Assembly (NCBI GenBank): GCA_002189035.1
Contig: NEEC01000020.1
Coordinates: forward strand, 744,001 to 808,000
Length of the DNA stretch: 64,000 bases
Reading direction: 5' to 3'
Source: Utricularia gibba
Lineage: Eukaryota > Streptophyta > Magnoliopsida > Lamiales > Lentibulariaceae
Shown here: positions 32,969 to 36,771 of the stretch, piece after piece
How positions within the stretch are numbered: position 1 is the first letter of the stretch
Layout: the number at the start of each line of letters is the position of its first letter
Notes under the pieces: model-generated
Told to the model about the DNA's origin: nothing
The model's database searches: none
What the model saw: the letters and a program-made list of their open reading frames with translations, nothing else
Program-made: the position numbers and the translations under genes

Positions 32969-34633
32969 TCAAAGCATCCATCTTGGAGAAGAAGTATGAA
33001 CAGCGTTTTGCTGTGGTCTGATCTGCCACGCCATGTTGTTCCTCTTCTTCATGATAGAGGAGACCGTGGGGCTGAAGTAGTCGTGAGAAGCTGTGCCCTG
33101 TGAGTGCACTTTACGGCTCGGAGTGAAACTCCGGTGCTTTTCCGGCAATGCGCCTCGAGCAACTGAGCATCTCTGCACCGGTGCCCATCTTGGGTAGTTC
33201 CCACAGCTCTGGCTTCTTCTCACATTGTGAACCTTTCCCGGACCGGGGCTTGGGAAATTGCGGCTCTCAGCTGTTTCAGCAGAGTACATGGTGGTTTCAC
33301 CTTCACTGTTGTATCCCTGTGGGAGCTCTGAAGTATCAGCTGGTGAAGAAGTTGATCGCATGTCATTCTGGGCTCCGTTTACCGACTCTGTGGACTCAGC
33401 ATGGCCGGATGGTTCACCGTCACATGATTCCGATAGCTCTTCCCGGCGTCTGGGCAGCACTTTCCTTGATTGTTTCGCTGATGATGATGATGATGATGAT
33501 GCATCACCAGGCTTAGGAAGCATGCTTGCTGGAGAATTGACATCCAGATGCTGAACTCGGGTCGGTATCGCCATCGCCATCGCTGCTTTCTTCCCTACCG
33601 GAGTCGAAATCAACTCCGGTGATCCATACATCTCAGGAGTTGGGATACCAGAAACATGTCTCCTATCCACACTTACTGCTTCCTCTTCCAAAGCATTCAA
33701 AACAGGGAAACTTGCTCCAGAGCTGTCTTCTGTTCTGCAAATTGTGTTGCAAAATGCAGGTCCCCCTTCGTTTTCGCCTTCTATCGGCTTGAAAACTCGC
33801 CTCATTGTAAATGATGCGCAAGACAACTCATTCTTTGACATCAGCCGCTTCAAAGGTACCTTTGGTTTGCAAAGTTCATCAAGATTGCCCTCCCAGTGCT
33901 GGTTTAACCAGTCAAGAATGATGGGGATAGGGATCCCAAACTGCATTGAGAGATCCCTTTTGCAAGATTTAGGCGAGGATGAAGATGAGGAGCAAGATCT
34001 GGTATTGGGAGATTTCGCAAGCTTCATGGGATCACAGACCATGAATGCAAGATTCCCATTGGAATCAAAACCAGCAGAACCAGGGCTCCATATCACACCT
34101 TCAGTTGATAACTTGATCAAGTTATCAGTAGCAACAACTACTTTCCCTTCCCCAACTCCCAACTCCTGCTTCTCTGAATATCCCAGAAGATACACAACGC
34201 TTCCCAGCTCAAGATTTGCCTTTGAGCATGATTTCAGGTAATGCAAATGGTGATTCGAATCCCCTTCCACTACATCAACCCCCACAACTGTGAGATCTAA
34301 CACAGAACTCGTGATGAAGAACCTGAATGGAATCGAACGGCCAATGAGTAGCCGTAGAGCATTGAATAAATTCACCCGTTAACGAACTTACCTGTGAGGG
34401 AAAAGGCAAGCAGAAGCGCCGCTGAGGAGTCGGATCTCGGCGGTTTCAGCCGCGGCAGTTGAGGGTAAACTGGCGTGGGTAGTGAGTAGCAGATTCCGGT
34501 GAATCAGAAACCCCGTGGAAACACCGCCTACTCTCGCCATTGCCGGAGATTTCCCTGCAAAAATTGCAGCTTTCATCTTCTCCGACTTGCCCCCGCCATT
34601 GCAGAAACACCAAGACTCCCGCAAAACCCCCAT
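32969..34633 (-). CDS. Plant trypsin-like (S1-fold) family protein
   Basis: Two exons on the minus strand, 34633-34392 and 34322-32969, join at CACAG|G to 531 residues. The N-terminal third is a protease-like domain: GFLIHRNLLLTTHASLPS carries the putative catalytic His, LDLTVVGVD the Asp, and SPGSAGFDSNG the Ser in a G-S-A-G setting. The rest is low complexity and Ser-rich, with SEGETTMYSAETAES and a basic tail (KKRNNMAWQIRP). A Ser run is encoded by a (GAT)n stretch (plus strand, about 33480-33500). It resembles the Arabidopsis family annotated only as trypsin family protein (At2g35155/At5g45030 group). Whether it is proteolytically active is unknown. The start is supported by an in-frame stop shortly upstream. 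Confidence 0.8.
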
Positions 34634-35040: not shown

Positions 35041-36771
35041 ATGGATGATTATACCAGAGAAATGATGGATTTGAAGACGCTCGTGACTCGTACATTGGAG
35101 AAGAAGGGCGTCCTTGCCAGGATCCGCGTTCGTATACCTTATTCCTCTGAATTTACTGCATTTTCTATGAAGACTGTGTTTCTTCTACGTCCACGTGTTT
35201 ATCTCATGCTCCGGCGGTATGTCGCCGGTTAATTTGCTCAGTTCACGACGGTGATTTGGTGGATCTTTTAATTTTGGTTCATTAGATTTTCTTTTGCATT
35301 TTCCTGCGGAGTAGATTCCTGAAGTTAGCGTCAATTAAGAAAGTACGCTTTGAGTAATGGGAATTGCGAATTGGAGTCTTCATTTCATTTCAGTTTACCA
35401 GAGAAATTGCGCTCTCGTTGCCGGTGCATTGTCATCTGCTAAATTTCTTGATATAGTGAATTTTGTAACTGGAACTTCTCTGCACTAACAGGCCGAGTTA
35501 CGAGCCAGCGTTTTTGAAGCGATTGAGGAGGAGGATAGGGTATTAGAGAAGGAAGAAGGTCTTCCTCCTGCGCTTTTGGGGAGCTGCAATGCCCGTGCAA
35601 AGCAACTTCACAACTCCCCATCAGGAAATTCTCATTTTACAAGTTTTTGTGTGGTTGAATACGATGTGTAGATCAAAAACATATTGGATTGTTTAGAGAT
35701 TCTGGGAAAGTATTACTTGGTCGCGTGTTATGTACATTTATGCTCATGTTTCGCCCCTAACATTAGATGCCTAATTTCAGGAAGGCTTCTCACTGCATTG
35801 ATATCTGAATATTTGGATTGGGCACAGTTAAATCACACCCTGAAAGTCTATCTTCCAGAATGCAATTTGGTATCTATCTATTCCAAGCTATAGTTTTGCG
35901 AGGTTTTGGCTCTGACTAATTTATTCGTAGCACTTACTGTAACGTGTTTGTGCTTCCTTAACCAGGCAAAGGATTCATGGAAAACTGAGTTAAAAGAATT
36001 TAGCAGCAAGAATGGATATGACCTTAATCGAAGTTCAGAGGGTGGGCCTCTGCTCTTGGATGTGCTTGAGGGTTTCTTGAAGTACGAGGTCTGCTTCTAT
36101 GATAATCCATGCTTTGTCACTGAAAGTTTCAAATCATTCCCTCAGGAAATCCATAGATATCCATGTGAGGGAACTCTATATGAAGAAGCAGTTCGAGTTT
36201 TTCGCATGCTTACTCTAATATGTTACACCTGCCAGCTGATATGAGTATGGCTGTTGGTTGCTCTCGTATTGTTGTTCATCCAGGCTCTGTTTTGTTGGCT
36301 GATGTCTTGTTGTAGAACTTATCGCAAGGAAGGGGTGGTAGCAACAGAAGATCAAGTCCCATAGATTCTGATTCTCTAGCAAACTTCGAATCTCGAACCA
36401 ATAGAAGACCTTCATCTTCGTCCATTGCTGGGGGCTTGCCTCCCCTTGGAAGGTAAATCCATTACTACTGCCCCTCTGGTCTCTCCAGATTTTATCCTAT
36501 CAGTTCTTGATGTGGTAATCTCTTGCAGGCCTATGCCAGTCTTACAGCTACCCGGTGCGTAGTAATGCAGGCTGAATTTATTTCCTGTTGAAATACCTCT
36601 ATCTTTTTAAATACTTCCCCTCATGTTTCAGATAGAAGAGCTGGATCATCTGCAACTGGATACAGGAAAGACGACTACAATTGGCGCGGTGAGAGTGACG
36701 AGTTTTCTGAAGATGTAGGTCGTGCATCAAGTGGATTAGAGAACCTGCAGCTGGAAAAAAAACCCCGTTGA
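35041..36771 (+). CDS. TON1: TONNEAU1 (FOP/LisH-related cortical microtubule protein)
   Basis: Seven exons: 35041-35127, 35492-35642, 35781-35869, 35966-36088, 36316-36452, 36529-36554 and 36632-36771, giving 250 residues. The start MDDYTREMMDLKTLVTRTLE and the segments FEAIEEEDRVLEKEEG, LLGSCNARAKQLHNSPSG, EYLDWAQLNHTLKVYLPECN and LLLDVLEGFLKYE are nearly identical to known TON1. TON1 is in the TTP complex with TRM and PP2A and is needed for the preprophase band and cortical arrays. Oddities: the conserved exon 2 end (SPSG) meets CAG|GAAATT, so no GT is at the ancestral junction. The next in-frame GT (35643) adds six residues (NSHFTR). The C terminus ends LENLQLEKKPR, lacking the usual NLTSSWR-like tail after an A8 run. 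Confidence 0.9.

Follow-up and report, generated by a model that had tools for sequence, protein, structure and literature searches.

Structure of the TONNEAU1 gene

The window, meaning the whole 64,000-nucleotide stretch of Utricularia gibba DNA that was analysed, contains a plant TONNEAU1 (TON1) gene on the plus strand at 35041-36771. Splicing in silico of seven coding exons (35041-35127, 35492-35624, 35781-35869, 35966-36088, 36316-36452, 36529-36554 and 36632-36771, stop included) gave a single open frame of 244 residues. The encoded protein matched the Pfam families LisH_2 (E 9.4e-13, residues 77-104) and FOP_dimer (E 2.7e-5, marginally below the curated cut-off), and its PDB match was human FOP (2d68). 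Exon 2 (35492-35624, plus strand) ended in SPS-G, and exon 3 (35781-35869, plus strand) began RLLTALISEYLDW... and carried the LisH motif. Five introns of the gene were GT-AG; the remaining one, intron 2, began with a different dinucleotide.

Donor and acceptor of intron 2

Intron 2 (35625-35780, plus strand; 156 nt, phase 1) was a GA-AG intron. The donor context was ccatcag/gaaatt (the slash marks the boundary between exon and intron), with exon 2 ending at 35624 and the GA at 35625-35626, and the acceptor was ttcag/gaagg, with its AG at 35779-35780. The donor matched the consensus at 7 of 9 positions, equal to the best GT donors of the gene, and its mismatches fell at +2 and +5 only, leaving CAG/G.AA.T. 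In CAG/GAAATT, an AG stands before the GA and an A after it, the pattern described for used GA sites in PMC7072748. The base at +5 was T in both TON1 copies of the genome (see below), so the site is no strong donor, which counts against its use.

The motif TCAGGAA was present at both ends of the intron (35621-35627 and 35777-35783). This repeat makes the cut point ambiguous on cDNA, GA-AG being the sole sensible pair, and the intron 2 junction could be mimicked by template switching of reverse transcriptase.

Two other classes of site were considered and rejected. A U12-type intron did not fit, since the donor GAAATTCT was unlike [AG]TATCCTT and, by eye, there was no TTCCTTRAY branch site before TTTCAG. 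For the human FGFR GA 5' splice site, a canonical site lying six bases before it is said to be required (cited in PMC7072748). The FGFR site resembles the TON1 site as a GA donor in a conserved gene but differs in that upstream site: in TON1 no GT lies six bases upstream, positions 35619-35620 being CA, which counts against use of the GA. Among U1 genes, no altered donor-binding stretch was seen: the eight found all carried the standard ACTTACCTG, with candidates scored in part and a genome that is possibly incomplete. These standard genes give no indication of a special U1 and likewise count against use of the GA donor.

Comparison with the duplicate TON1 copy

One further TON1 copy was found in the genome, on C1 near 474.5 kb, making two copies in all. 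TON1 relatives were also sought in bacterial or archaeal and viral contigs, and none were found there, as expected. In the C1 copy the aligned donor was CAG/GCAATT, against CAG/GAAATT in the window, and the exon boundaries around intron 2 were the same in both. The C1 intron was GC-AG and 73 nt long (CAG/GCAATT...TTTCAG/GAAGG). It held one GT only, 24 nt before its end; having no usable GT, it can only be spliced as GC-AG if the C1 gene works. Roughly the first 16 bases of the intron were similar in both copies, which places the GA at a truly homologous position. Calculated U1 pairing was the same for the GA donor and the C1 GC donor. The difference in intron length (156 against 73 nt) was mostly due to gaps midway along the alignment, at 35641-35750.

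All seven exons aligned without gaps between the copies, and there were no coding indels. Exon 2 differed from the C1 copy at 11 positions and exon 3 at 6, all of them synonymous, so that the 17 differences in the two exons changed no amino acid. Over the N-terminal domain (residues 1-144), dN was 0.016 and dS 0.41, values that span the whole time since duplication and in which a recent mutation would hardly show. Together with the purely synonymous changes in exons 2 and 3, they show that the region around the junction has been strongly constrained since the copies arose. The first codon of exon 4 (35966-35968) was Ala in the window (gca, A104) and Pro in the duplicate (cca), giving CNL-A/P-KDSW; only five residues, this one among them, differed between the copies over positions 1-144.

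The GC donor of the duplicate also bears on the direction of change. Starting from GC, one change after duplication is enough. Starting from GT, two are required, either as independent T to C and T to A changes or as GT to GC before duplication followed by GC to GA. The simpler direction, judged from the duplicate in the same genome, would be GC to GA. The initial annotation had described the donor as changed from GT to GA; this found no support, as the sole other copy found in the genome has GC and the closest example in the literature went from GC to GA.

The TON1 gene on C1 was followed by the same kinase gene (a receptor-like cytoplasmic kinase) as in the window. The gene upstream of TON1 (33600-34300) likewise had a C1 homologue, which was inverted and lay about 87 kb away. 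The shared kinase neighbour and the inverted upstream homologue show a duplicated block with some rearrangement. In the C1 kinase duplicate, a one-base deletion in the activation-loop region caused a frameshift leading to a stop (C1 about 477982-477984). The exon carrying it was otherwise strongly constrained (dN 0.010, dS 0.41), and the deletion is either a very recent loss of that copy or an assembly base error.

The A at 35626 could likewise be an assembly base error, the plant itself having GC (or GT), an explanation that we rate as quite unlikely. The lone deletion in a constrained kinase exon is what assembly error would look like, although it may itself be real. In polished long-read assemblies, if this is one, wrong bases are normally less frequent than indels, and the indel-free alignment of the TON1 exons with the duplicate further argues against an error at this position. 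According to PMC5716242, sequencing errors may account for part of the rare splice pairs found in annotations.

Alternative GT donors

The next GT downstream (35643-35644, plus strand; acaa/gttttt) lies in phase at +18 and is a candidate cryptic donor. Its use would add 18 nt and give SPSG-NSHFTR-RLLTAL. The initial annotation had placed a GA donor at SPS-G and offered three explanations, namely a GA-AG intron, a donor shifted to this in-phase GT with an NSHFTR insert, or a sequencing error. The window letters and the window translation bear out the GA, the exon end and the insert at these positions, and the set of options was the right one; within it, GA-AG is favoured over the shift.

A donor moved to the GT at 35643, so that the LisH region of TON1 would begin with six additional residues (NSHFTR), appears most unlikely to us. 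The site is a canonical GT in phase with an open frame, and window TON1 has other weak donors too, such as CGC/GTTCGT. However, an in-phase position has roughly a one-in-three chance of arising and carries little weight. With 5 of 9 consensus matches, the +18 GT had the weakest U1 pairing of the set, at -1.4 kcal/mol compared with -2.1 to -6.8 kcal/mol for the GT donors of the window copy, and it was not conserved in the C1 duplicate. With the insert added, the score against FOP_dimer dropped to 18.5 bits, compared with 24.8 bits otherwise. The six residues would fall at the G-R-L motif common to plant TON1 and human FOP, in a region free of amino-acid change between the copies.

Further GT dinucleotides were rejected. 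Those at 35559, 35595 and 35649 lay in phase within exon 2 or the intron; they were poor matches to the consensus, and splicing there would remove or add a larger number of residues. The GT at 35540 had good calculated U1 pairing but would shift the frame.

Comparison with known GA donors

At most about 0.01% of the introns annotated in plants are GA-AG, which makes the TON1 site an unusual one, and five plants had 0 to 14 annotated GA-AG introns per genome (PMC10668435). A GC-to-GA change in TON1 would be of a rare kind already known in another plant gene. In intron 12 of SYMRK, the donor is GC in most dicots and GA in Trema orientalis from Borneo, where the intron is about 95% spliced and the gene functional; GC to GA introduced into Parasponia SYMRK gave full complementation (PMC10668435). 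The Trema gene is like TON1 in having a plant intron with a GC donor in relatives and GA at the same place, in a gene that is otherwise intact (PMC10668435). The two cases differ in that splicing, complementation and population range were shown for SYMRK and its GC is known from many species, whereas for TON1 the GC is known from the duplicate in the same genome only and use of the GA is a prediction from sequence.

Two Arabidopsis introns, AGY1 intron 4 and PPI1 intron 6, are described in PMC5716242 as GA-AG and confirmed by cDNA sequencing; like TON1 intron 2 they are single GA-AG introns in plant genes, although the genes are different. The GA-AG introns of Eurytemora affinis and Oikopleura dioica share with TON1 the AG before and the A after the GA. 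Those animals, however, have thousands of GA sites and possibly a variant U1, as given in PMC7072748, whereas here there is one site and the eight U1 genes found are all standard in the donor-binding stretch.

The GA may be real and poorly used, with intron 2 mostly retained or scattered cryptic sites used instead, so that window TON1 would be a weak allele, or one being lost, with the C1 duplicate compensating for it. We regard this as unlikely. When +2 becomes A, splicing is usually lost, which counts against use of the GA donor. It also counts against use that a TON1 duplicate is present in the genome and could cover loss of the window copy. Retention of intron 2 would give SPSG-NSHFTSFCVVEYDV-stop, in which the 15th codon past SPSG is a stop in frame, and the window residue A104 in place of the Pro of the duplicate would also fit a weakened copy. 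The frame is otherwise intact, however, with no coding indels and a strongly constrained N-terminal domain, and the efficiency reported for the SYMRK GA site (PMC10668435) shows that such a donor can work well in a plant.

The Arabidopsis allele ton1a-1 (nom) is also in keeping with poor use, being a mis-splicing allele of TON1a that is hypomorphic and viable (PMC4813286). Its mis-splicing was assayed with primers spanning exons 2-3, a point of likeness to window TON1; it differs in being a hypomorphic mutant from a genetic screen (PMC4813286). In the literature searched on TON1 intron structure, this allele was the only entry, and it was described without its base. The ton1a-1 mutant is reported there to be without detectable preprophase bands in root epidermis and cortex (PMC4813286), a defect which indicates that loss at one TON1 copy can matter.

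Proposed origin and use of the GA donor

On balance, intron 2 of window TON1 is probably a true GA-AG intron of the U2 type that arose from GC-AG through one substitution at +2 and is spliced at the ancestral position. Under this model, the intron would have begun as GC-AG, as the C1 duplicate still has it, and become GA-AG by that single substitution. Normal U1 and the spliceosome would probably cut after the CAG that ends at 35624, joining it to 35781 and leaving the intron in some transcripts, and recognition would be carried by the consensus kept at the other donor positions (CAG/G.AA.T). The product would be unchanged TON1 protein, and the GA donor is probably a harmless rarity, as far as the letters of the two copies can indicate.

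If the GA donor is used, this would be a second example, after SYMRK, of conversion from GC to GA in a plant. If it is unused, window TON1 would be an ordinary weak duplicate. A broader proposal, which we advance tentatively as possible rather than probable, is that TON1 intron 2 has long been a GC-AG intron in this lineage, and that functional GA donors arise repeatedly by way of GC donors whose consensus is otherwise good, TON1 being a second such case in plants, after SYMRK. The two copies may then differ in splicing efficiency, and hence in how much of a division-plane protein they supply.

With its nearly identical exons, the GC duplicate is a natural control within the same nucleus, and the GA/GC pair would offer a direct measure of the splicing cost of the GC-to-GA change if the GA is used. 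In that case, gene predictors will misplace the end of exon 2.
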